A DNA stretch of 39,012 nucleotides, from assembly GCA_003105035.1 (NCBI GenBank), contig PQAL01000042.1, positions 1 to 39,012 on the forward strand, written 5' to 3'. Positions 9,609 to 27,050 of the stretch are shown here, in pieces (position 1 is the stretch's first letter; each line of letters starts with the position of its first letter). Made by a program: the position numbers and the translations under genes. The notes below the pieces were generated by a model that was not told the DNA's origin, searched no databases, and was given only the letters and a program-made list of their open reading frames with translations. The stretch comes from Anaerolineales bacterium. Lineage in GTDB: Bacteria > Chloroflexota > Anaerolineae > Anaerolineales > UBA4823.

Positions 9609-11492
9609 TTAAGCACCGGCAACAACACGGTTACCAATGCCCCTGTAAGTTGCAACACCGTAGGCCCAACGATCACGGATCTTGATGGGCAGGGTGTCAT
9701 TGGTGAACAGCAATCCACTGGATGGATCGGTCACCGAATACAGCTGGGGAGCCGGGTGGCTATTGCCACCAGGGTTGTCACCGTAGGCCATGCAGATCAC
9801 GGGGAAGATGCGTGGGTCAACGATGTAGCCCCAATTGGTGGTATCGGTCCAATCGGGCACGGCGACCACCACGGGCCGTGGATCACCAGGGCGATCCTGG
9901 GCATACGGGTTCACATCATTGTTGGGTGTGGCGGGGTATCCGCCAGGGCCGGCACCCATGCCGAACATGATCAAGGCACTGTCATACAGGTCCACGGGTA
10001 CGAGCAGGAACTTGGGCCACAGGACCTGGCGCTTGGCGGAGCCGAGTTCGGCCTGTTTGGCACATTCGATCCGTGCAGCTGCCCAGGCCGAAATAGCCAG
10101 GGCCGTGGTGGCATAGTTACCATGGGAATTATCACTCTTGAATAACTCCTTGCTGTCCTGGGCCAGGGTTGGACCTTGACCAGAGGCGGTGGTAAAGATG
10201 CTGGCAATTGCAGCTGAGCGAGTGCGGATGGCGCTGATCGTCAATGCTTTCGGAATGGCCTGCAACCGGTCAATTTCTGAGTTACGCAGCATCTTATCCG
10301 TGATGCCAACATACCCTCCGTACTTGGTGAAGGCGGAGGTCTCTTTCGTGTCGATCACGCTGAGCTCAGTGTAGGCAGCTCCTTCGGCGACAACCGGCAG
10401 GTTGGTCACACCACCGAACTGCAGCCACTGCATATCCTGCAGGGATCCATCCGTGGCCTGCACGGCCACGATGGGCTCATACCAACGATAGGCGGTCAGG
10501 TTGGTGTAGAGCTCCAGCACGACCTTGTTCATGGCGTTGACGGCCAGGTCTGCCAACGTGGTGGTGTTGGCATTGGCGAAGGCAACATGCGAGGGATCGA
10601 AAGCACCTCGCATCTCAACGTCACCGGTCACTGCACGGTAAAGTGCATCCGATCTGCGCAGCTCGGGCGGGGGCAGCTTGGCGCCTTGGGCGCCAAACAA
10701 CCAATCGAAATAACCCTGGAACTGCTCCAACCCCGTGGGGCCAACACTGAGCTGCTGCCCCCGCGGTGGGTTGGCTCCGATCTGGATCACACCATCTTCC
10801 AGCTTACGGGTAAGCGTGGCAACCTGGCTCTCCAGCTCGGAAATCTTGAATAATAAGTTATCTTCCATATCTTTGTCATCTCCTTCTTTCATTAATCTGG
10901 TAAATTCTTCATCGGTGAATAAGGCCTTTATATCTTCATCGGTGATCTGAAATAATCCATCTGGATTGAGAGCGGGCTCGTCAACGATGTCGGCTGCGTA
11001 TAACGAAGTGATACGTGCCACGGGATATTTGTCGGTGGCACTGGCGGGTCTCCCGCCGGTAGCCGGCACCTCATTCCCATCTGCTGTGGGCCATACCCGC
11101 TCCAGGTCAACGACCACGCTGACACCGAAAGCACCAGGATCTTCCCTGGCCAGCTCCAGCACATACTGACCAAGATCACCTGCGGGTGACTTGTGAGCTG
11201 CTCTGCTGATAAACAGGTCCGCTACTAATTTGTGGTTATCCACTCTAAAGTTGCGGAAACGACCGAGGTACTTACCCAATCCGTCATTGAATGGATCGGG
11301 ATGGGTGAACCTGGACTTGATGCCATTGGCCTTGCCCTCGGCGATCTGCTGCAGCTGGAACAGGCTGTGATCATCGAACAAGAGCCGATGGCCGAGTGCT
11401 TCTCCGGTGGTGGCTACGCTTACGCCGAGGATGGCATCGTCGCCAATGGCCCCACTGAACGGGATGGGTTGAATACGTAGCCTTTCTGGCAT
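9609..11492 (-). CDS. fused prohead protease, scaffold and major capsid protein
   Basis: A 627-residue polyprotein. Residues 1-185 look like a phage head-maturation protease (Mu I/S78-related): the probable catalytic His64 in SRFTHPDP, Ser125 in AFGVSVVV, and the DIVDEPALNPDGLF block typical of these enzymes. Residues of about 185-245 are acidic and coiled-coil-like (DNLLFKISELESQVATLTRKL), as in a scaffold. Residues of about 245-627 have the length and Gly/Ala-rich character of an HK97-fold capsid protein. Phages normally split these functions over two or three genes; here one frame runs through without interruption. The strong AAAGGAGG site before the ATG fits a highly expressed capsid gene. 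Confidence 0.8.
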   Translation of the reverse strand: MPERLRIQPIPFSGAIGDDAILGVSVATTGEALGHRLLFDDHSLFQLQQIAEGKANGIKSRFTHPDPFNDGLGKYLGRFRNFRVDNHKLVADLFISRAAHKSPAGDLGQYVLELAREDPGAFGVSVVVDLERVWPTADGNEVPATGGRPASATDKYPVARITSLYAADIVDEPALNPDGLFQITDEDIKALFTDEEFTRLMKEGDDKDMEDNLLFKISELESQVATLTRKLEDGVIQIGANPPRGQQLSVGPTGLEQFQGYFDWLFGAQGAKLPPPELRRSDALYRAVTGDVEMRGAFDPSHVAFANANTTTLADLAVNAMNKVVLELYTNLTAYRWYEPIVAVQATDGSLQDMQWLQFGGVTNLPVVAEGAAYTELSVIDTKETSAFTKYGGYVGITDKMLRNSEIDRLQAIPKALTISAIRTRSAAIASIFTTASGQGPTLAQDSKELFKSDNSHGNYATTALAISAWAAARIECAKQAELGSAKRQVLWPKFLLVPVDLYDSALIMFGMGAGPGGYPATPNNDVNPYAQDRPGDPRPVVVAVPDWTDTTNWGYIVDPRIFPVICMAYGDNPGGNSHPAPQLYSVTDPSSGLLFTNDTLPIKIRDRWAYGVATYRGIGNRVVAGA

Positions 11493-11825
11493 TTACTCTA
11501 CCTCCTTTTCTTCTGGCACCTGCCGAGTGATCTTGGTGTACTTGATGGTCGCCTTGGTGGTAGGTGGGAAACGGTCAGTAACGAATGAGTAAATACCGCT
11601 GGCACCTAAACCGACTGCAATTCCAAAAAAGGCTACATCGATGTACGGCTGCGCCGGCACGTAAAGCTCCCGGGCTTTGTAAATCAGGCCGAAAGCAATA
11701 CCTACCAACATGGCAATAAGCATGAGCTTATTTCCGGAGATCCCAAATTTCTTGATGAACTCCACGACACCCAACACGATCAACGCCAGGGTCACCGGAT
11801 TGACAATAAAATTACCTATATCCAT
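11493..11825 (-). CDS. holin-like small membrane protein
   Basis: A 110-residue protein with three hydrophobic segments at about 9-25, 33-48 and 63-82 and a basic/acidic C-terminal tail (TRQVPEEKEVE). This fits a class I phage holin, which would let the GH25 lysozyme reach the cell wall. The ATG at 11825 is chosen because AAGGAG stands upstream; two codons further a GTG is possible. Its stop abuts the capsid gene. A structural membrane protein is an alternative, since it sits between portal and capsid genes rather than in a lysis cassette. Confidence 0.6.
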   Translation of the reverse strand: MDIGNFIVNPVTLALIVLGVVEFIKKFGISGNKLMLIAMLVGIAFGLIYKARELYVPAQPYIDVAFFGIAVGLGASGIYSFVTDRFPPTTKATIKYTKITRQVPEEKEVE

Positions 11826-11837
11826 ACGCACTCTCCT

Positions 11838-11957
11838 TCATTGGTCTTTTCTGACTTGATAAAATATGGTCAAGGCGAAGATCAACAACGCCAGGCCGGC
11901 ACACACATAAAAAACCGCTGCAGCAAGATCGGGCAATTCTTGTACAAGATCACACAT
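11838..11957 (-). CDS. 39-residue single-TM phage protein
   Basis: A small protein starting MCDLVQEL with one long hydrophobic helix (AAAVFYVCAGLALLIFALTIFY) and the charged tail QVRKDQ. The start is decided by AGGAGG seven bases upstream; it overlaps the last eight bases of the portal gene. Size and topology fit a pinholin or holin accessory protein. A longer reading in the same frame lacks a ribosome binding site and overlaps the portal extensively, so it was not used. Confidence 0.55.
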   Translation of the reverse strand: MCDLVQELPDLAAAVFYVCAGLALLIFALTIFYQVRKDQ

Positions 11958-13329
11958 TGGGTCCTCCTGGCTGATTACCAGGCATAAACATGGGTTCGAT
12001 AGGATCACTCTTGGCTTCGGAGATGATCTTGTCCAGCACATCATCTTCCTGGGGCTCGCCAGCAAACTTGAGCATCAGGTCCATGGCGATCTTGTGAAGT
12101 GTAGGCGACTTACCCAGCAGGGTATTCTGCAAGGTGGCGAAGCCCATCGAGAGGGCACTGGCTGCATCAGCCAGCAAACTGTTATCCCGTAAACTCACAT
12201 CGGGAAGATCTGGCTTGAACAGCTGCTCATAATCGGTCTGGACCAGGGCCGGCTGAGCTGCAATCTCTACCGCCCGCAGGTAAGCCTGGTACAAAATATC
12301 CTCCAACATCCAGACAAAATATTGTTGTCTTTTCTGCAGGAAGCGTTCTGGAGGGCCTTGCATGGCTTCGGCAGTGGCCAGGTTCACATCTCCGCCTTCA
12401 CCGCGCCAGTGGGGTGGCAGGCCTGCGCCGGCATCGATCATGGTGCGCACGGCCTTCATGTCATGGCCGGCGTCAGCACCACGCAGGCTGGGGGTGATGG
12501 TTTCCCATGTTTCACTTTCATCCTTTACCACGATCGATCCGCTCTCGGGTGGGGATCCGTACTGTGTGCTTTTACTTTCCACTTTATTACTCGGGACCGT
12601 GACAAGATACAAAAATGCTCGGGCTGCCCAATGCAATCTGACCCGATCTTCGAGCATCCTCGAATAACGTAACAACCAGGGGATGATCGTGGTCAGATCA
12701 CTCTCACCCATCAAGGCCCCGATCGGCCGGTTGACGGCATAATGCAGCATGATGGCGTCAGCCATGGGTGCATCGGGATGATCGGGGGAGAGCCATTTCC
12801 TGGGATCATACTCACCGGCCGGCGGGGTTTCCCAATAGACCAACTCAGTTTCCCAATCATTCTGAGCGGTCTCAATCTTCTGGATCTGGTCTTTGGTGAC
12901 GAAGCGAATATAACTCATGCCGTCTATGCTGTTTCTAAACAACAGCACAAATAGATCACCGGACCGGCTGAGCTCCTCCATCATGGGCACCAGGCGTAGG
13001 GCCATCCTATTCTTACGATGGTTCCAAAACTCCTTGATGAACTGATCCAGGGCAGCATCCTCGGAGCTGAGCTCGATGCCGGTGCCCACCACGAAGTTGA
13101 CCGTGGTGTTGATGATGCGCCAGGCCATGGGGTTCTTGCGCCAGGCAGTCAGGCTGTCAGTGTAAAGCTCCTGGATCTCGGTCCAGGTACGATCATGTTT
13201 ACGCCCACTGATGGTCTGCCAGTGATCATCGCTGGCCAGGTTCGGGCTGAGTGATACACTCGTGGTGTAACCTGGGCCATCAAAGCTTTCAGCTGTAAAC
13301 AACCTGGTAAAGATATCTCTAACGTTCAT
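11950..13329 (-). CDS. phage portal protein
   Basis: A 459-residue portal-type protein. The stem/wing features are visible: WRKNPMAWRIINTTVNFVVGTGIEL near the N-terminus, the helical ELSRSGDLFVLLFRN segment, and a C-terminal part with the GLPPHWRGEGGDVNLATAEAM motif (phospho-independent, typical of lambda/HK97-like portals) and a long helix (RFLQKRQQYFVWMLEDILYQAYLRAVEI). The portal forms the dodecameric ring through which terminase pumps DNA. The ATG at 13329 has GGAGGTG upstream and overlaps the end of the lysozyme gene by 11 bases. The length is normal and no defects were seen. Confidence 0.8.
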   Translation of the reverse strand: MNVRDIFTRLFTAESFDGPGYTTSVSLSPNLASDDHWQTISGRKHDRTWTEIQELYTDSLTAWRKNPMAWRIINTTVNFVVGTGIELSSEDAALDQFIKEFWNHRKNRMALRLVPMMEELSRSGDLFVLLFRNSIDGMSYIRFVTKDQIQKIETAQNDWETELVYWETPPAGEYDPRKWLSPDHPDAPMADAIMLHYAVNRPIGALMGESDLTTIIPWLLRYSRMLEDRVRLHWAARAFLYLVTVPSNKVESKSTQYGSPPESGSIVVKDESETWETITPSLRGADAGHDMKAVRTMIDAGAGLPPHWRGEGGDVNLATAEAMQGPPERFLQKRQQYFVWMLEDILYQAYLRAVEIAAQPALVQTDYEQLFKPDLPDVSLRDNSLLADAASALSMGFATLQNTLLGKSPTLHKIAMDLMLKFAGEPQEDDVLDKIISEAKSDPIEPMFMPGNQPGGPNV

Positions 13330-14167
13330 TGAGCACCTCCATATATCGGTATCCATTCCGCTCGATGGCGGTCCAACCCCGGCGGTGCTTCACCCAGCAA
13401 TCCGGTCCACCCAGCTCAACGCACTCCACGATCTCACCGCGGTTCAAGTGACCGATCTCAGCTGCCTTCATATCGGGTCGAGCTCGAATATGCAGGGCGT
13501 TGAACTGGGAGCGCAGGCGCAGCCTGGGCTGGGGTGGATCGAGCGGGCGGTAATTTCCAAACCACTGACGCATAGCTTTCAGGTTGCCATTGAACCAGTT
13601 ACCATCGGCAGTCTCACTGCAGCCTGGGAACCAGAACCGATCGGTAAACTGCCAGATCTTGAAGTTGTTAAATCCGATCGGGATGGATGGAGAGCGGGCC
13701 GTGGTGTAATGGGCTACGATCAAGTCTGTAGTGAAGGCCCAATCGGGAGCTGGGCTGGTAACATGTTCATTCCAAAAGCCGGCACTGGTGTAGATGGCTA
13801 CGTTGGGTCCATGCAGCCTGGCATGAAGATAGAGAATAAACGCTCGAATATCTTTCATGTACTCGCTCTTGGATTTCTTGGGGGCTTCCTCCAGATCGAG
13901 GATCAGCACAGGATAGTCACCTCCACTGGCCTGGTAGAAAACTTCGGCTTGCTCTTCTGGATCGGCGGAGGGCTTGTAATAGTGATAACAACTGTGTGGG
14001 ATGCCTGCTTCCTGGCAGCCCTGCTTGTTGGACTTGAATAGGTCATCGACAAAATTCAACCCTTCGGTGCACTTGTAATATGCGAAGGGGATGTATTGGG
14101 AGGCTATGGACCAATCGATCATGCCTTCCCAATGGGATACGTCAACGCCAAAAGTGTATTGGTTCAT
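13319..14167 (-). CDS. GH25 muramidase (endolysin) with C-terminal SH3-like domain
   Basis: A 282-residue lysozyme of the GH25 (Chalaropsis) family. The start DVSHWEG (Asp9), the substrate strand YYKCTEG and the catalytic DLEE (Asp91, Glu93) are visible. The C-terminal 65 residues (FNALHIRARPDMKAAEIGHLNRGEIVECVE, CWVKHRRGWTAIE) form an SH3b cell-wall-binding domain. No signal peptide is present, so export would need a holin. The ATG overlaps the stop of the large terminase gene (ATGA). Finding the endolysin between the terminase and portal genes is unusual, since lysis genes normally follow the tail genes. Confidence 0.88.
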   Translation of the reverse strand: MNQYTFGVDVSHWEGMIDWSIASQYIPFAYYKCTEGLNFVDDLFKSNKQGCQEAGIPHSCYHYYKPSADPEEQAEVFYQASGGDYPVLILDLEEAPKKSKSEYMKDIRAFILYLHARLHGPNVAIYTSAGFWNEHVTSPAPDWAFTTDLIVAHYTTARSPSIPIGFNNFKIWQFTDRFWFPGCSETADGNWFNGNLKAMRQWFGNYRPLDPPQPRLRLRSQFNALHIRARPDMKAAEIGHLNRGEIVECVELGGPDCWVKHRRGWTAIERNGYRYMEVLNER

Positions 14168-15669
14168 GTGAATTTCAGCTCCTCCAAGATGTCACGCACC
14201 TGGATCACCTGGCTATCCCCCGTGCCCCAGGTTTCATCATCCAGCAGGCTGATCAACGCAGCTGAGATTACCAGGTCATCGTGCATGAGCTCCCCATCAC
14301 TCACATCACGGGTGCCATCGGGTACACCCCACTTCATGAGCTTGCCAGGTCCATCCTTGATCTGATACTGACAATACTCCAGCTGCTTATTCATGGCACT
14401 GTCGAATGGATAATATTCTTTATACCGGCCGGTCTCTACGGTGGCCAGGAAGGTCCAACCTAGATCGGATTTGCTGGTCTGGCTGAACTCGAAGGGTAGC
14501 ACTTTTGTGCCAATCTTGTCAGCCAGGAAGCCGGCCAGGCCTGCTCCTACACCGGTGGCGTCAATGATCACCTTGACCGGTGACCACAACGTATTGAGAC
14601 CTACGATCGTTGAATACAACATGCTATGCTTGACGCCGATCCAGGTTAAGCGGTTGACCGCCTTGTAGATCGGCTTGCTGGCCAGGTCACTATCTTTGGG
14701 CAGCTCCAGCTCGAAGATGGTCAGGACCGTGCTATCTCGTCTTGGGTTGCTAAGCTGTGTGCTATCGTCAACCACGGTTTCATCCTGTCCTGCCACGTCA
14801 ATGGTAAAAGCATAGATGTGTCCAGGTATGGGAGCGTTTTGTCTGCTGTGCGATCCAACCATGAGGGCACGGCGGGCCAGGGGAAACATACCGCCTTCAC
14901 TGTCAATCTCCTCGGAAAAGTATTGGGTCCTCACCAACGGGTTATTTCTACCCAGCTTGATCACCTGGTCATCGACAAACTTTTTATAAGCCGGTACCTC
15001 GGCGCCCACATCATCGGCGGTGAGCACCCATGTACGGCGTATGCCGTCCGCCTGCTCCAGCAGGCGAGCTGCCCTGAGCTCACGGGCGAGCAAGGTGCGG
15101 GAGGTCCAGGCTGTGCCCCAAAACACACGGGTGGCATTGGTGGAGGCTGCCATGGGTGCGATCTCCTTATCCCACTTGCTGATCTCTACGTCCTGGGCTT
15201 CGTCACATTCCAGTAGTAGGCTGGCGGTGGCGCCCACGATCGAGCTGGTGGGAGATCCGCTGAGAAAATGGATCATAGCTGTGCCCACCTGGTAGATATA
15301 ACCGGATCGCTTTTTCCAGCGGTCGCGGCAGATCAGGTTACGCTTGATGACCCGTTCCAGGCGGCGCATGGCGTTTAATGATTGGGGTTTCCAGGTGGGA
15401 GATACCTTCACGATTTCAGCCTGTTCCACGCTGCACAGGCTTAACAGGTAGGCTTCGATGTGGGCTTGCAGCTCGTTCTTGCCCGATTGGCGTGGGAACA
15501 TGACCACGAACGTAAGCCCCTTGCCCTGGATGGCCGATTCAGTGATTGTCCTGGCTACCTGTTGTTGGTAGCTGCGCAGCCTGAGGCCTCCGGCTTCAAT
15601 GCAAAAGCGGTTCACGTCGCGCAAGATTTCCTTGCATGTTTCAACCAGGCCTTCGCCATCGGGGTTCAT
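14164..15669 (-). CDS. terminase large subunit
   Basis: A 501-residue DNA-packaging motor. The ATPase part has a Walker A variant FPRQSGKN (residues 58-65) and Walker B LLLECDE (151-157). The nuclease part has the acidic residues Asp291 (FTIDVAGQ), Asp370 (IIDATG) and Asp464/Asp465 (MHDDLVIS), as in RNase-H-fold terminases. The protein is complete and all key residues are present, so it could be active. It overlaps the XhlA-like gene upstream and the lysozyme downstream by four bases each, in strict translational coupling. Confidence 0.88.
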   Translation of the reverse strand: MNPDGEGLVETCKEILRDVNRFCIEAGGLRLRSYQQQVARTITESAIQGKGLTFVVMFPRQSGKNELQAHIEAYLLSLCSVEQAEIVKVSPTWKPQSLNAMRRLERVIKRNLICRDRWKKRSGYIYQVGTAMIHFLSGSPTSSIVGATASLLLECDEAQDVEISKWDKEIAPMAASTNATRVFWGTAWTSRTLLARELRAARLLEQADGIRRTWVLTADDVGAEVPAYKKFVDDQVIKLGRNNPLVRTQYFSEEIDSEGGMFPLARRALMVGSHSRQNAPIPGHIYAFTIDVAGQDETVVDDSTQLSNPRRDSTVLTIFELELPKDSDLASKPIYKAVNRLTWIGVKHSMLYSTIVGLNTLWSPVKVIIDATGVGAGLAGFLADKIGTKVLPFEFSQTSKSDLGWTFLATVETGRYKEYYPFDSAMNKQLEYCQYQIKDGPGKLMKWGVPDGTRDVSDGELMHDDLVISAALISLLDDETWGTGDSQVIQVRDILEELKFT

Positions 15670-15953
15670 GGCACCAGCAGGATACGCACCAGCTCGATCA
15701 GCGAGAGCAACCCGCCGCCAGCGGCCAGGCTCACCAGCAGCTTAAATTGGGTGGCGCTCTCAGTCAGCTCACGCAGGCGTTTCTCGTAGTCGGCAGCCTG
15801 GGTTTCTAGGCTTTGTAAGCGCAACAGGTAGACCTGTGCGATGTGCTCCTGCTCGGCGCGTGTCGCGGCTAGGTCTGCCTTGATCAAATCCAGGGTGTGC
15901 CCCAGCTGTTCAGAGATAAGTCGGGAGTTTGCATCATTCAATTCGTTTGTCAT
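15666..15953 (-). CDS. XhlA-like coiled-coil membrane protein
   Basis: A 95-residue protein with a long amphipathic coiled coil (residues of about 5-68) and one C-terminal hydrophobic segment (FKLLVSLAAGGGLLSLIELVRILLV). This is the layout of hemolysin XhlA-type phage proteins, which assist holin-mediated lysis in Bacillus phages. It overlaps the terminase start by four bases. No good ribosome binding site stands before the ATG. A 135-bp gap with no recognised feature separates it from the preceding small gene. Confidence 0.6.
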   Translation of the reverse strand: MTNELNDANSRLISEQLGHTLDLIKADLAATRAEQEHIAQVYLLRLQSLETQAADYEKRLRELTESATQFKLLVSLAAGGGLLSLIELVRILLVP

Positions 15954-16088
15954 TTCAATTGGGCTGCTTTAAACTAACAAGGAAGAAATGAATTGATTGT
16001 TATATTGCCTGAGTTGCCTGGCTAAGGTTGATCGATTAACAGATCCGGTTGTTTGCTGACAGCTGAAACCTGATCACTGATAGCTGTA

Positions 16089-16361
16089 TTAATCCCGATC
16101 CAATCCCCATTCGCGACGCAGCTCGCGGATGGCCGTGTCCACCGCCTGGGCAAAGTAATTTTGCGTAGGGCAGTTGCGCCGCTCACGGCAGGTGAGGCAG
16201 CGCTGGGTGGACCGGCGTAAGCGCCTGACCGCCCGGTGCAGGTCGTGAGCTTTGTCCAGCACGCTTCGGGCTTCGCTCAGGATCGGGCAGGTTGGGTTGG
16301 GCAGGCCGGGGGTGATAGGTCGGGATCCCACCTGGAGTGGCTTGGGTTGATTGTTTTTCAT
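16089..16361 (-). CDS. Cys-rich small phage protein
   Basis: A 90-residue basic protein with four cysteines (Cys25, Cys55, Cys58, Cys64) in an Arg-rich helix-loop region (RRLRRSTQRCLTCRERRNCP). This could bind zinc or an iron-sulfur cluster and may contact DNA or RNA. The ATG has AAGGAG upstream and overlaps the stop of the TerS-like gene in an ATGA. No family is recognised. A packaging accessory or late regulator is possible, but the sequence gives no direct proof. Confidence 0.55.
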   Translation of the reverse strand: MKNNQPKPLQVGSRPITPGLPNPTCPILSEARSVLDKAHDLHRAVRRLRRSTQRCLTCRERRNCPTQNYFAQAVDTAIRELRREWGLDRD

Positions 16362-16711
16362 CGTTTACTCCTTAGTTCAGCGTTCACTTGTTGGATGGCA
16401 AGCGAGATCTCATCTGCCAGTCCACCATTCTGTTCAGTCAGGTTTTTCTGAGTCCGCAGCAGGCTTGCCAATCTGCCGGCAGCCGCTCCCAGGGCATCCA
16501 ACACCCGCGTGGCCTCCCGCAGGTCGTCTATGCCATCGGATAGCTCCATCGTGCGGCGTATCATCACCCTTAGCAAGGTGATCTCGGGTTCCAGGTTGGC
16601 TGGGGTATCACTCGCCAGGTCTGAAGTCTCTGCGTTGTGGAACAGGCGTGAATAAAAGCCGTTTTTTAGTGCGTTCAGGTTACCTTTCGGGGCACCGCGG
16701 GGGTTGGTCAT
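16358..16711 (-). CDS. small terminase-like protein
   Basis: A 117-residue protein, first gene of the cassette. It opens with GAPKGNLNALKNGFYSRLF, a basic motif common at the N-terminus of small-terminase-like proteins and phage-associated DNA-binding proteins. Helical segments with heptad-like leucines follow. The position before the large terminase supports a TerS role (DNA recognition for packaging). Ribosome binding is by AGAAGGAT just upstream of the ATG. Some proteins with this N-terminal motif belong to mobile elements of other kinds, so the role is likely but not certain. Confidence 0.6.
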   Translation of the reverse strand: MTNPRGAPKGNLNALKNGFYSRLFHNAETSDLASDTPANLEPEITLLRVMIRRTMELSDGIDDLREATRVLDALGAAAGRLASLLRTQKNLTEQNGGLADEISLAIQQVNAELRSKR

Positions 16712-16776: not shown

Positions 16777-16871
16777 TGTAGGGGTGGGTCTTCGACGAGG
16801 ATTCCGAGGGGGTTAATGCCATGGAGTTGTACTTATCAACGATTCGATCGCACGCTGGCGACCCACCCCTA
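16777..16871. repeat. REPIN-like element, copy 1 (95 bp)
   Basis: GTAGGGGTGGGTC (16777-16789) and GACCCACCCCTAC (16859-16871) are perfect 13-bp inverted ends enclosing 69 bp. The distance between the outer bases is 95 bp, the same as in copies at 17973, 18381 and 24952. The left end continues with TTCGACGAGG, related to the CGTCGAAGACCC inner border of the other copies. Confidence 0.75.
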
Positions 16872-16889
16872 CGATTACGCCCGTCGGAT

Positions 16890-17050
16890 GAACCCCTGGC
16901 ACGGGAGGTCGAGGATGTTACAGTGCCTTGGTTCCCTGGCAGGGGAGGCGCCGGATCGGACCAGGCAGCATGCGGGGCTGCCCTTTGGCGTTAAAAGAAT
17001 TGGCACGGGTGAGCGGAGGTCTTACTCCGCATTGCCCGTGCCAGGGGTTC
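16890..17050. repeat. 161-bp segment bounded by 16-bp perfect inverted repeats
   Basis: GAACCCCTGGCACGGG at 16890-16905 is the exact reverse complement of CCCGTGCCAGGGGTTC at 17035-17050. Inside the right part is a nested hairpin (17001-17043). The whole segment lies in the leader of the phage cassette. It could be a small inverted-repeat element, a folded RNA leader or a binding site. The sequence does not decide between these. Confidence 0.55.
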
Positions 17051-17057
17051 TGTGGAC

Positions 17058-17085
17058 ATTATAGCACATATGTTCTATTCTACAA
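17058..17085 (-). promoter_or_regulatory. putative promoter of the phage cassette
   Basis: On the minus strand TTGTAG (17085-17080) and TATAAT (17063-17058) are separated by 16 bp. The -10 is perfect and the -35 matches 4 of 6. Transcription would start near 17050 and run through the leader into the TerS-like gene. No repressor gene lies nearby. Confidence 0.45.
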
Positions 17086-17367
17086 GAGGGTTATGGATCT
17101 TTTAAGATTTCTCATCTTGCCTGGATTTGCAGAAAAAACACCCGAATTTATCTAATTCGCTTATAAGTTACCATATTTCCGAGCATAGGTTTCTTGAAGC
17201 TGCATTGCCTGCCAGTGTGGATACCACGAACATTTCATGCATAACTACGCCTGTGAAATAAGATAATAATAGTCGGAAAATGGTGTTACAATCATAGGAG
17301 ATATTCTTATGATTATTGGCACCGCTGATGTAGCGGGAGGGTTTTTTGTTCAAGGGAGGAAAATAAT

Positions 17368-17562
17368 ATGGGTATCATTCTGAACATCATTGCTGCTGTT
17401 CTCATCCTCGTGGGTGGTGTGTGGATCTTGCAGGGAGTCAATATCCTGCCTGGCAGCATCATGACCGGGCAGAGTCAATGGGCCCTGTATGGAGGGATTG
17501 CCGCCCTGGCAGGTTTGGTCTTGCTGGTGCTGGCGAACCGAAAAAAGTCACCCTCGCCATAA
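17368..17562 (+). CDS. small two-TM membrane protein
   Basis: A 64-residue protein with two hydrophobic helices (about 3-25 and 38-57) joined by the conserved-looking loop LPGSIMTGQSQWALYG and ended by a basic tail (NRKKSPSP). The same architecture, with LPGS and MTG motifs, recurs in short hypothetical membrane proteins of Actinobacteria and Chloroflexota; the function is unknown. AAGGGAGGAAAATAAT before the ATG is a strong ribosome binding site. It is the first host-like gene right of the phage cassette. Confidence 0.75.
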   Translation: MGIILNIIAAVLILVGGVWILQGVNILPGSIMTGQSQWALYGGIAALAGLVLLVLANRKKSPSP

Positions 17563-17632
17563 CGAGGTATGGTTGGGGCATAATTGCGAGGATAGTAACC
17601 TGGTCACCTGCACGTTTTTTATGCAATCCATC

Positions 17633-17725
17633 GTAGGGGCAGGTCGTTAGTGCGTACTGAGGTGTGACCATAGAGAGCCTCTGTCTCTGGCGGGATTGGA
17701 TTTCCCGTCGAAGACCTGCCCCTAG
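17633..17725. repeat. REPIN-like element, copy 2 (93 bp)
   Basis: GTAGGGGCAGGTC (17633-17645) and GACCTGCCCCTAG (17713-17725) form inverted ends with 12 paired bases. The right end is preceded by CCCGTCGAA, as in the other copies. It lies just after the 3' end of the transposase gene. About 20 bp to its left is ACCTGGTCACCTGCACG (17598-17614), which recurs exactly at 36079-36095. Confidence 0.75.
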
Positions 17726-17732
17726 ATTGCCC

Positions 17733-18344
17733 TCATACCTTATATTCCTTGTCCTCCATCCAGTGCCGGGGATTGTCGATAATATACGCACGTAAAGCAT
17801 CCAATTCGCGCTGGTTTCGAACAATCCGCTCGTAATAATTCCTTTGCCACACTGCACAGCCTGTGGTTCCCCGGATATTGTTGATCCTGCGTGCAGAATC
17901 TGATTTTAACGAGCGGATTAATTCCGATAAGGCATAGCGTTTCCCTTTGTAGGGGCGGGAAACCTGCCCGTTGTAGGGGCGGGTCTTCAACAGGTTATCT
18001 GTTACCGATTGATCCACCAGATCAAACTTATCAGCTGCTTGATGACTAGCCGATGACCCGCCCCTACCGATTGCTTCGTTGATAACAATTATTCCGTGAA
18101 AATGGTTTGGCATGATTACTGAAAAGTCCAAAGTGATATTCAGAAATCGATGTGGCAGCTGCCCCCAAACTTTCTGAGCGATTTCCCCGCACAAGCTGAG
18201 CTTCATCATATCACCCACGACTTCCCCGAACAGATTCAATCGGTCCATCGTCACTAACGTAACAAAATAAGCCCCTGGCGATGAATAATCGTATCCCTTT
18301 AGCCGGATCGACCGCCGCAGATGGAAACGTTGATCGTATCTCAT
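17733..18344 (-). CDS. REP-associated tyrosine transposase (RAYT, Y1/IS200-like)
   Basis: A 203-residue single-strand transposase of the TnpA-REP type. The HUH motif is MPNHFHG (His81, His83), and the catalytic tyrosine lies in the NYYERIVRN segment (Tyr170 or Tyr171); the C-terminal NPRHWMED is typical of RAYTs. RAYTs are thought to mobilise REP/REPIN palindromes. Here REPIN-like elements flank the gene on both sides. Residues of about 93-124, plus a further repeat end at about 129-132, are encoded by such an element inserted in frame between the HUH motif and the ALSELIRSLKS block. The frame stays open, so the enzyme may still be made. Confidence 0.85.
   Translation of the reverse strand: MRYDQRFHLRRSIRLKGYDYSSPGAYFVTLVTMDRLNLFGEVVGDMMKLSLCGEIAQKVWGQLPHRFLNITLDFSVIMPNHFHGIIVINEAIGRGGSSASHQAADKFDLVDQSVTDNLLKTRPYNGQVSRPYKGKRYALSELIRSLKSDSARRINNIRGTTGCAVWQRNYYERIVRNQRELDALRAYIIDNPRHWMEDKEYKV
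17973..18067. repeat. REPIN-like element, copy 3 (95 bp), inside the RAYT gene
   Basis: GTAGGGGCGGGTC (17973-17985) and GACCCGCCCCTAC (18055-18067) are perfect 13-bp inverted ends, 95 bp overall. An extra half copy GTAGGGGCGGG stands at 17949-17959. Read through the RAYT frame the ends give the peptides GRGG and TRPYNG / SRPYKG. The element adds coding sequence without breaking the frame. Confidence 0.85.
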
Positions 18345-18380
18345 ATCGCAATTTTACCCCTTCCACCAGCGCATCCTTTT

Positions 18381-18475
18381 GTTGGAGTGGGTCGCCAGTG
18401 GTAAATTCAGGCAGTGATAAGAATGACTCAATGGCTTTCTGGATATCAGATCACCCGTCGAAGACCCGCCCCTGC
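18381..18475. repeat. REPIN-like element, copy 5' of RAYT (95 bp, left end degenerate)
   Basis: The right end GACCCGCCCCTGC (18463-18475), with CCCGTCGAA before it, is clear. The left end GTTGGAGTGGGTC (18381-18393) matches the consensus end at 10 of 13 positions. The exact 95-bp span, equal to the other copies, supports it as a decayed member. It lies just upstream of the transposase start. Confidence 0.65.
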
Positions 18476-24150: not shown

Positions 24151-24780
24151 ATGTCACTTTTGTCCCAGCTGTCATCCCAGGTGGGCGACCGCAGCGAAGC
24201 CTCCAACCTGCGGGTTGTCGGCCTTTGCCTGGAGGACCCCATCTTATTGAAAGAGATTAACCTCGGCCTGGCTGAAGATGACCCAGCCCTGCTGGGCGAT
24301 TGTGCTGAAGTTATAACCAAGGTTGCAGAGACCGATCCCGCGTTGGTCGTCCCGTACGCGGCTGCCCTATCGGTCTTGCTGCTTCACCCGAACACGCGCG
24401 TGCGATGGGAAGCCACACACGCCATTGCCCTCATTGCTGGGCTTGTCCCTGCCATGCTGAGCGCCTTAATGCCCATCCTGGTTCGTATGCTGCGCGAAGA
24501 CCAGAGCGTCATCGTCCGCGACCACGCCGTGGATGCGCTTGGGAACTACGCTGCTACCGGTGCCCATGCTTCTGAGTGCGTTTACCCTTACCTGCTCGAA
24601 GGACTGACCCTGTGGGACGGCAAGCAGGCTGGCCACGCCTTGCATGGCCTGGCAAAGGCCGCTCACTACCTGCCTGCCAGGCAGGCTGAGCTGATTGAGA
24701 TCGCCAATATCTATTCATATTCTGATCGCCCTGTCATTGCTAAATCTGCTAAAGAGCTTTTCAAAGCCGTCACCTCATAA
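24151..24780 (+). CDS. HEAT-repeat protein
   Basis: A 209-residue all-helical protein with four to five HEAT-like repeats. Clear units include DPALLGDCAEVITKVAETDP, NTRVRWEATHAIALIAGLVP and QSVIVRDHAVDALGNYAATG. HEAT proteins serve as scaffolds or DNA/protein binders; bacterial AlkD-type HEAT proteins are DNA glycosylases, but their typical catalytic residues cannot be shown here. The ATG at 24151 is taken because it lies two bases after the dinB stop, with CGGAG upstream; a longer reading would overlap dinB by 100 bp. Cotranscription with dinB suggests a stress-related role. Confidence 0.7.
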   Translation: MSLLSQLSSQVGDRSEASNLRVVGLCLEDPILLKEINLGLAEDDPALLGDCAEVITKVAETDPALVVPYAAALSVLLLHPNTRVRWEATHAIALIAGLVPAMLSALMPILVRMLREDQSVIVRDHAVDALGNYAATGAHASECVYPYLLEGLTLWDGKQAGHALHGLAKAAHYLPARQAELIEIANIYSYSDRPVIAKSAKELFKAVTS

Positions 24781-24951: not shown

Positions 24952-25046
24952 GTAGGGGCGGGTCACCTATTTTTATTCGAGGTGTTTGCAATAAAGGCAC
25001 AATGGCACCTTCGATATTCGACGACCCGTCGAAGACCCGCCCCTAC
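24952..25046. repeat. REPIN-like element, copy 4 (95 bp)
   Basis: GTAGGGGCGGGTC (24952-24964) and GACCCGCCCCTAC (25034-25046) are perfect inverted ends, 95 bp overall. The inner right border CCCGTCGAA is present. It lies 6.6 kb from the transposase, in the gap before the peptidase gene. The 515-bp gap holds this, the variant palindrome and a promoter; no gene. Confidence 0.85.
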
Positions 25047-25295: not shown

Positions 25296-27050
25296 ATGGA
25301 CAGAAAATTGTTGCCAGCCGCGATCATTTTCGTCTGGGTGCTTCTCACCGGGTGCAGCTCGGTGGCTCGCAATCAAGCAACGCCCGCCATCACCTCTACA
25401 CCAATTCCTGAGCAACCTTATAGCACCATGAGCTCACAGCCATCGCATGGCCTGGCCGGCGGTGATTCGATCGGTGACGCCTATATCCCCAGCATAGGCA
25501 ATACCGGCTACGACGTACTGCAATATGACCTGGATATCCAATTTTCAGGTTCGATCGACGCCATCACCGCGACTGTGACCGTGTCCTCGGTTGTCACCCT
25601 CGACGATCTGGGGCGGTTCAGCCTGGATTTTACCGGTTACCAGGTGGATAGCGTGCAGGCAGGCAACCAATATGTGCCTTTTTTCCGGGATGCTGGAAAG
25701 CTGTATATCGATTTGCCGAAAGCCCTTTCAAAAGGTGAGCAACTGGTCACCCGGGTGGCCTACCACGGACCAGCTATCCCGCAGGATTCGCAATTCATCA
25801 ACCTCGGCGGCCTGGGCTTCCACGTGATTGAAGGAAACAACCTCACCTATGCCTTTGGGGAGCCTGATGGGGCACATGCCTGGTTCCCCTGCAACGATCA
25901 CCCCCTGGATAAGGCCGAATACCGTTTCAGCCTGACGGTGCCGAAGGGCTTTACCGCGGTCGCCAATGGCACCTTGCTGCAGACCACCAGCAAAGATGAC
26001 CGCCAGGTGTTCAACTGGTTGGCAAAAGATCCCATGGTAACCTACCTGGCGACTGTGGTGGTGGGCAAGTATGAGCGCCTGGACAAGCCAGCAGTCGGGG
26101 AGGTGAAGATTCGCCATTATGTGCTTGAAGGAGATTTTAATTACTCCGACAAGTTAAATGATACCCGGGATATACTTGAGTATTACTCTGACCTGATTGG
26201 CCCGTATCCCTTTAGCGAGTTCGGTTTCATCATCATTCGCACCAGTGATGACGTGGCACAATTCGCTGAGGAGACCCAGACCATCGTAATGGTCGATCGC
26301 GGCTATATGCTAAGTGAATCAGCCGTGGGAGTGCTGGCCCACGAGCTGGCCCACCACTGGTTTGGCGATTCAGTCAGCTTGGCCAATTGGAACGAAGTGT
26401 GGCTCAAGGAAGGCATGGCGACCTATTTGATGGTGCGCTGGTTGGATCACCAGGGTTACGTTGGCTTACAGGCGCTGATGGCTGATCTGGAAAACGTCCT
26501 GGTTACCAATGCAGCTAATCTAAACCAGCCACTCAACCAGCCTTTGCCTTCCACGATGTATGGGCCGAACACCTATGACAAGGGTGCCTGGGTCTATTAC
26601 ATGCTCAGCCAGCAAATGGGCGAGCCGGCCTTCACCACCTTCTTACGCGAGTACTACAAGCGTTTTGCAGATGGAAATGCATCCACGGTCGAAGTACAAG
26701 AGCTGGCAGAGGAGGTCAGTGGGTTGGATTTGTCTACTTTCTTCCAGGAGTGGGTTTATGGTTCGGGTAACCCTGATTTGCATGTCAGCTGGGCCACCCT
26801 TCCCGAGGGAGTGGCTGTGCAGGTCTGCCAGGCAGGTGGCGGGCAGGTATTCAGCGTGCCGCTGGAGATCAAGTTAGCGGCAGCGGATGGCACTTCCCAA
26901 CAAGAGGTAATTCCGCTGGACGAAGGTCAGGAGCAGGTCACATACAGCGTACCGTTCACAGTAACCGAGCTGCAGGTCGACCCCGATCAGAAGCTGCTGG
27001 CAGGTACCACCGTATCTCAGGTGGATGCATTATCGGCCTGTGCCCCCTGA
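25296..27050 (+). CDS. M1-family metallopeptidase lipoprotein
   Basis: A 584-residue gluzincin. A lipoprotein signal ends in the lipobox LTGC (Cys20), so the enzyme is exported and anchored by lipid. The N-terminal beta domain is visible, then the catalytic domain with HELAH (349-353), Glu372 eighteen residues on (HEXXH-X18-E) and the TYDKGAWVYYML stretch with the supporting tyrosine. The usual GAMEN exopeptidase motif is not present; the equivalent place reads AQFAEETQ (321-328). It may therefore differ in N-terminal recognition. The C-terminal ARM-like domain of classical M1 enzymes is replaced by a short beta domain. Confidence 0.9.
   Translation: MDRKLLPAAIIFVWVLLTGCSSVARNQATPAITSTPIPEQPYSTMSSQPSHGLAGGDSIGDAYIPSIGNTGYDVLQYDLDIQFSGSIDAITATVTVSSVVTLDDLGRFSLDFTGYQVDSVQAGNQYVPFFRDAGKLYIDLPKALSKGEQLVTRVAYHGPAIPQDSQFINLGGLGFHVIEGNNLTYAFGEPDGAHAWFPCNDHPLDKAEYRFSLTVPKGFTAVANGTLLQTTSKDDRQVFNWLAKDPMVTYLATVVVGKYERLDKPAVGEVKIRHYVLEGDFNYSDKLNDTRDILEYYSDLIGPYPFSEFGFIIIRTSDDVAQFAEETQTIVMVDRGYMLSESAVGVLAHELAHHWFGDSVSLANWNEVWLKEGMATYLMVRWLDHQGYVGLQALMADLENVLVTNAANLNQPLNQPLPSTMYGPNTYDKGAWVYYMLSQQMGEPAFTTFLREYYKRFADGNASTVEVQELAEEVSGLDLSTFFQEWVYGSGNPDLHVSWATLPEGVAVQVCQAGGGQVFSVPLEIKLAAADGTSQQEVIPLDEGQEQVTYSVPFTVTELQVDPDQKLLAGTTVSQVDALSACAP

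Follow-up and report, generated by a model that had tools for sequence, protein, structure and literature searches.

The window analysed here is a stretch of 39,012 nucleotides, positions 1 to 39,012 of the contig C42 of an Anaerolineales genome. It contains a transposase gene of the RAYT (TnpA_REP) type accompanied by five hairpin elements of nearly constant length, named E1 to E5. The host had been taken from the letters alone for a probable member of the Chloroflexota, and this was borne out by a GTDB-style classification, in which it shares its family with an Anaerolineales MAG; Anaerolineales belong to the Chloroflexota. A prophage-like head and packaging block occupies positions 9609-16711 on the minus strand, with genes for the terminase small subunit (16358-16711) and large subunit, an endolysin-like protein, a portal and a head protease, and E1 lies just outside this block. 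The features of the RAYT locus are as follows.

16778-16872, plus strand: E1, 95 bp; arms paired at 13/13 positions, with a compensated T/A change; fold z-score -4.06
17633-17725, minus strand: E2, 93 bp, ending 7 bp past the RAYT stop codon; arms paired at 12/13, with a compensated A/T change; fold z-score -4.01
17733-18344, minus strand: RAYT/TnpA_REP gene, 203 amino acids; HUH-Y1 transposase of the MPNHxH...WQRNYYEH...YIxxNP type
17784-17786, minus strand: codon of the catalytic tyrosine Y187 (YIIDNP), from the alignment, positioned by hand
17949-17972, plus strand: second, partial foot and hairpin, GTAGGGGCGGG-AAA-CCTGCCC, adjoining E3 and also inside the RAYT frame
17973-18067, plus strand: E3, 95 bp, inside the RAYT frame; arms paired at 13/13; fold z-score -6.35; covariance-model E-value 2.2e-16
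18096-18104, minus strand: HUH motif H81-F82-H83, from the alignment, codon positions by hand
18381-18475, minus strand: E4, 95 bp, 37 bp upstream of the RAYT start; arms degenerate, paired at 9/13; fold z-score -1.97
24952-25046, minus strand: E5, 95 bp, between genes ending at 24780 and starting at 25296; arms paired at 13/13; fold z-score -5.53

The identification of the gene as a RAYT, already proposed in the earlier note, is confirmed by a match to the Y1_Tnp profile (26.8 bits for a cut-off of 23, E 5.9e-6) and by the predicted structure of the protein (built from 71 sequences, mean pLDDT 82.9), whose best solved match is 4er8, the E. coli RAYT with its REP hairpin (E 9.5e-6, TM-score 0.49/0.59, 15% identity). 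The NCBIfam model NF047646 (REP_Tyr_transpos) gave 51.1 bits, below its cut-off of 80, and stays below this cut-off for all RAYTs of the source genome, while a sequence search of the PDB with the RAYT returned an unrelated match only (E 0.12). The HUH motif and a single catalytic tyrosine are found within the Y1 fold. H81, H83, W166, Q167, N191 and P192 are invariant in the 71 aligned sequences, and Y187 nearly so. Among 150 relatives, at least 70 possess a RAYT relative at E <=1e-10, the closest being about 50% identical among the matches listed.

In the predicted structure, the HUH strand (residues 81-88) and the next helix (139-158) are joined by a low-confidence loop. Mean pLDDT over blocks of ten residues is 45-55 for residues 91-130, against 94-98 for residues 21-90 and 141-200, and this loop is predicted to be disordered. 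E3 encodes approximately residues 93-124 and thus falls between the HUH and tyrosine motifs. L230, L236 and L239 have loops of 120 nt, whereas that of the RAYT in the window measures 246 nt from the HUH motif to the tryptophan; the 126 additional nucleotides are accounted for by E3 and by 31 nt that carry the second partial hairpin, the foot of which is GTAGGGGCGGGAAA. The elements had been described previously as surrounding the RAYT, which is accurate for the copies that flank the gene but overlooks that E3 belongs to its reading frame.

These properties are those of the subclass 2.4 REPtrons as described by Quentin et al. (2018, PMC6006769). The motifs NH[IFV]H, WQ and Y-I-x-N-N-P of this subclass occur here as NHFH, WQ and YIIDNP, with D instead of N in the fourth place of the last one, and the variable insertion between strand 3 and helix C is found at the same site in the predicted structure. 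GT[AG]G elements are present within 1 kb and within the gene, and have a double foot. By its fold, its motifs and its insertion site, the RAYT of the window fits TnpA_REP subclass 2.4 (Bertels group 4). The E. coli TnpA_REP, in spite of being the best solved fold for the model, differs from it by the low identity given above, by the absence of the hairpin-encoded loop and by the bulged stem of its REP.

All five elements with inverted ends reported in the window are real. They consist of inverted GTAG...CTAC arms of the GTAGGGGCGGGTC type and measure 93-95 bp. The coordinates first given for E2, E3, E4 and E5 were correct, and those of E1 were off by one, the element starting at 16778. The inner border TTCGACGGG (CCCGTCGAA), thought to be common to all of them, is exact in E2, E4 and E5 only; E1 carries TTCGACGAG and E3 carries TTCAACAGG. 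Two further copies, E6 and E7, located elsewhere in the genome and presented below, have fold z-scores of -4.86 and -4.64, each element being folded singly. Taken one by one, six of the seven elements fold better than all of 200 shuffles, E4 being the weak one. Over the 95-bp copies E1, E3, E4, E5 and E6, the cores have a mean gapless identity of 0.48 versus 0.26 in shuffles (0/2000 reach this value), and the two arms have identities of 0.94 and 0.89. Such figures point to a single ancestor from which the ends were kept and the middle drifted at constant length, and the degenerate arms of E4 indicate that element copies decay.

Conserved pairing of this kind could also be expected from RNA-level hairpins (attenuators, terminators or mRNA stabilisers) selected for their effect on expression, the RAYT being then a bystander. 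The compensated changes that keep the arms of E1 and E2 paired, the folding of six elements out of seven beyond all their shuffles, and the end of E2 just past the RAYT stop codon would all agree with such a role. However, none of the four terminator-like sites detected corresponds to a 13-bp arm hairpin, their number hardly departs from the mean of 3.0 obtained with shuffles, and the coding sequences of RAYTs from many phyla contain these same arms, which track the RAYT. This explanation is therefore very unlikely. One of the terminator-like sites, a short one, is situated within the E2 core at 17680-17694. The length, the terminal inverted repeats and the diverged cores would equally suit decayed MITEs that derive from a DD(E/D) insertion sequence without relation to the RAYT and lie near it by chance. 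Against this origin stand the GTAG feet, the cognate copies found inside RAYT genes and the recurrence of the same design at two other RAYTs of the genome, on contigs C5 and C25, which render it very improbable.

The single ends of the elements were folded separately as well, over 34 nt and with RNA parameters. The left ends reach -3.4 to -8.3 kcal/mol and the right ends -1.6 to -8.1 kcal/mol, compared with -15.0 to -19.3 kcal/mol for three REPIN-like ends from relatives. A strong REP hairpin is thus absent from either single end of the 95-bp element by this 34-nt folding, and recognition must accordingly use the long hairpin or differ from that of the RAYTs studied so far.

At the scale of the genome (4.45 Mb), the exact 13-mer of the arms occurs nine times, always on C42 or C20, for a chance expectation of about 0.13 (calculated by hand from length alone with equal base use). 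Eight of these nine occurrences form four inverted pairs spanning 95, 95, 95 and 94 bp, and such pairs revealed E6 (C20:81-175) and E7 (C42:81805-81898). With one mismatch the total of 18 equals that of a reversed-pattern control, so that only exact, paired copies are informative. The genome-wide abundance anticipated for this 13-mer did not materialize, while the anticipated spacing preference (95/94 bp) and the link to the RAYT hold. A covariance model built from E1-E7 gave 17 rows at no fewer than 11 distinct places (eight strong and three weak), a lower bound since 150 of 746 first-pass candidates were scored. The places beyond E1-E7 are listed here.

C42:112148-112240: strong place, E 7.6e-7
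C42:90803-90897: weak place, E 0.0015; arms paired at 6/13
C33:161839-161929: weak place, E 0.0016; arms paired at 5/13
C42:110852-110948: weak place, E 0.0066; arms paired at 9/13

Nine of these places, at least 11 in all, are on C42, one is at the start of C20 and one elsewhere, on C33. The contig of the window has 126,671 bases, which is 2.85% of the genome, and nine places out of 11 on it would correspond to p ~7e-13 (hand calculation) if the places were independent, an independence that local duplication would break. The location of the elements on C42 and C20, in a genome with an estimated contamination of 4.08%, raised the possibility that C42 was mis-binned; composition gave no sign of it, although by this measure alone mis-binning may still have occurred. 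For 20-kb pieces, five from C42 and two from C20, the correlation with the other contigs is 0.885-0.921 (one piece gave no value), and the other contigs give 0.826-0.924. Among 150 relatives of the same family or order, searched with stricter filters, the full 95-bp member was seen in the source genome only; model matches at E <=0.001 were 29-61 bp long and came from 10 genomes. The 95-bp family is therefore low-copy and regional, and its copy number and confinement are its least expected features.

A second repeat family, with arms GGGGCGAAGCATTCG, was observed in the same genome, at 13 places with at most one mismatch (control 0), eight of them on C42. It occurs at positions 233-247 of C20 (L160), around 81 kb, 111-116 kb and 126.6 kb of C42, and near 161.7 kb of C33 (L201), and lies within about 600 bp of five of the 11 places counted above for the 95-bp elements. 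No RAYT carrying the GGGGCGAAGCATTCG hairpin was seen in the source genome; a similar hairpin is found inside the RAYTs of L054 and L072. The contig C20 (L160) begins with the last 23 bases of C42 (L159) and repeats its last 81 bases slightly further on. This overlap places E6 probably just beyond the end of C42, and the junction, at which elements of both repeat families are repeated, is probably an assembly break in a repeat array.

The source genome holds two more RAYTs that had escaped the earlier note, each with its own, different hairpins. The C5 RAYT (191 amino acids, 48% identical to that of C42) is accompanied by hairpins of about 60 bp on both its downstream and its upstream side and bears another one in its frame, at the same place as in the RAYT of the window. 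All five genome copies of its exact foot TAGGGGCGYAGGG fall between C5:214850 and 215607, that is within 758 bp, and 15 matches are obtained with one mismatch versus 6 in the control. The C25 RAYT carries the 35-bp palindrome GTTGTAGAGACGTCCCACTGGGACGTCTCTACAAC at the same in-gene place. An in-gene hairpin is therefore common to the anatomy of the three RAYTs.

This anatomy was studied over a wider set of RAYT genes, taken from 100 stretches with relatives of the same order and from the best 80 of 270 loci from many phyla. Homologous frames numbered 114 and 83 respectively; the two motifs occurred together in a single frame in 71 and 76 of them, giving 146 genes after removal of one duplicate; the frames without both motifs (43/114 and 7/83), possibly including broken genes, were left out. 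Y[IVL]xxNP is present in 136/146 genes and WQ in 143/146, the latter partly by construction of the selection. The loop between the HUH motif and the tryptophan contains an exact GTAGGG foot in 111 of the 146 genes and feet on both strands in 81, with a spacing that is mostly 28 or 29 bp (40/81). In the first set of 71, the density of feet is 9.0 per kb in the loops versus 0.59 per kb around them. Perfect arms of at least 11 bases were found in 76 of 133 loops (the 13 others being too short to use), against 0/133 upstream segments, 3/133 downstream segments and 0/133 codon-shuffled loops. The feet are absent from the TAG-reading frame (0/124 forward feet), an observation set aside as evidence because the loops came from stop-free frames, which makes it a selection effect.

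For 25 of 56 genes, the in-gene foot is also found again in the 3-kb surroundings of the gene itself, the average for the surroundings of other genes being 5.2%; no such recurrence is seen for the 31 remaining genes. The sequence of the in-gene arm correlates with the identity of the core protein (Mantel r 0.293 over 109 genes, 0/2000 permutations; r 0.278 over 68 genes after dereplication at 60%, 0/2000 permutations), a correlation of which shared descent alone can yield a part, since the arm sits in the same gene as the protein. Two additional patterns were observed in these loops. Hairpin halves or the encoded peptide (PNELPL and VGATGH repeats) are multiplied in tandem in the RAYTs of L091, L065, L081, L141 and L086. 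The four RAYTs of L213, L214, L215 and L225, from deltaproteobacterial records, have in common an element inside the gene that measures 109 bp in each of them; its ends are conserved and its middle differs, which is the same pattern as in the 95-bp family.

The confinement seen around the RAYT of the window can be compared with the situation in relatives. Of the three RAYTs of the closed genome G131, two account for all exact copies of their foot (4/4 and 4/4) and the third for 1/4; the broad pattern gives 25 matches versus 23 in a control, so that only the sub-families at the RAYTs are meaningful there. Over nine genomes covered in full for their double-foot places, 10/66 of these places were at a RAYT gene among the matches listed (counted by eye): 2/15 in G063, 2/2 in G140, 0/15 in G116, 0/12 in G082, 0/5 in G058, 3/6 in G130, 2/9 in G093, 1/1 in G029 and 0/1 in G012. 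In G063, G116 and G082 the double-foot elements are spread over the genome, and confinement is thus not general. RAYT genes are strong hotspots, yet dispersal occurs, which puts the confinement of the window type at one end of a range. The dispersed elements of G063, seen on several contigs, measure 51-53 bp, one of them being inside a RAYT, and their arms change in a paired way (GCTCGGC/GCCGAGC, GCACAGC/GCTGTGC, GCTCAGC/GCTGAGC).

Hairpins situated right at both ends of the gene, on C42 as well as on C5, together with the two complete sets of feet at RAYTs of G131, raise the question of an IS-like unit in which the RAYT and its flanking hairpins move as one, the scattered elements being internal deletions of it. 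Nevertheless, the three RAYTs of the source genome are different genes with different hairpins, as the low identity between the C42 and C5 proteins illustrates; none of them was detected a second time in the genome; and low identity between class 2 copies within genomes is likewise reported by Quentin et al. (PMC6006769). Joint movement of this sort appears unlikely.

With respect to the described systems, the closest kind is, as judged from sequence, the REPtron of subclass 2.4, whose REPs have a double foot and in some cases lie within the RAYT gene itself. For this subclass, Quentin et al. (PMC6006769) report REPs with a double foot as well as REPs inserted in frame between the HuH and Y motifs, and call this unique to it. 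The window has this very arrangement, with GTAG...CTAC elements of the double-foot kind beside the gene and, between these two motifs, within it; the in-gene copy measures 95 bp here, unlike the 28-29 bp that is common in the loops surveyed above. In the portion of that account available to us, Chloroflexota are not singled out. Di Nocera et al. (2013, PMC3733652) reported GTAG repeats in Chloroflexi among other phyla, REPs located within reading frames, and RAYTs of which some are bordered by long TIRs, three traits with a counterpart in the window; the TIRs of these TIRtrons are mostly unrelated to the GTAG repeats, whereas the arms described here begin with GTAG. No REP literature naming Anaerolineae was found, and no publication treating Chloroflexi or Chloroflexota together with RAYTs was found by title or opening of the abstract.

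The resemblance to REPINs is only partial. In REPINs the spacers are less conserved than the REPs, length and hairpin are critical and compensatory changes are common (Bertels and Rainey 2011, PMC3116915). The 95-bp elements possess the corresponding long hairpin of two inverted conserved ends, with a less conserved spacer of kept length, compensated changes and one family per RAYT. They depart from REPINs by their single ends, which do not form a REP with a hairpin of its own, and by their number and distribution, namely at least 11 places, nine on one contig, rather than the tens to hundreds of dispersed copies of REPINs. RAYTs flanked by inverted REPs, usually present in more than 100 copies per genome and co-evolving with them, were reported by Nunvar et al. 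(2010, PMC2817692). The nine exact 13-mers and the small number of model places led to the rejection of a genome-wide REPIN population. The complete REPIN-RAYT system put forward in the earlier note is therefore sustained for the RAYT, the hairpins of near-constant length, the conserved ends, the compensated arms and the variable cores, but not for the abundance of the 13-mer nor for ends with REP hairpins of their own.

The locus is very probably a REPtron, in which a domesticated HUH/tyrosine RAYT of subclass 2.4 goes with a dedicated low-copy family of REPIN-like 95-bp elements that have a double foot. By analogy with characterised RAYTs, the enzyme probably moves the 95-bp hairpin element: GTAG is at the 5' foot on both strands, copies lie upstream, downstream and inside the gene, and the catalytic motifs are intact. 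Recognition and cleavage of GTAG hairpins are reported for groups 2 and 3 only (PMC8266576). On the model of these enzymes, the element would fold when its DNA is single-stranded, for instance on the lagging strand; the RAYT would read the GTAG foot and the stem; and its tyrosine (Y187) would cut next to the hairpin and join or copy the element elsewhere. Since both strands carry a foot, either one could serve. Most new copies would have landed near their source, leading to a regional cluster, and the in-gene copy may have survived because it keeps the frame and falls in the loop predicted to be disordered.

A bolder proposal, which we regard as doubtful although conceivable, is that the in-gene hairpin is a kept copy rather than a tolerated accident, that subclass 2.4 genes carry their own substrate and that their families stay small and regional around the gene. 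Enzyme and substrate would then be inseparable by transfer or loss, each gene would keep the record of its own enzyme-substrate pair, such that the recognition code of these enzymes could be read across phyla, and families such as that of the window would be small regional sets instead of genome-wide REP populations.

The arrangement itself is already described in other bacteria, and the locus is a well-marked new example from Anaerolineales. It extends an experimentally untouched subclass to the Chloroflexota through a well-resolved case, in which one genome combines three RAYTs with three different families of hairpins. As the in-gene arm tracks the protein, the genes of this subclass constitute a list of protein-hairpin pairs for the study of RAYT/REP specificity and co-evolution, and the existence of a regional, low-copy family calls into question the assumption that RAYT-linked repeats spread genome-wide.
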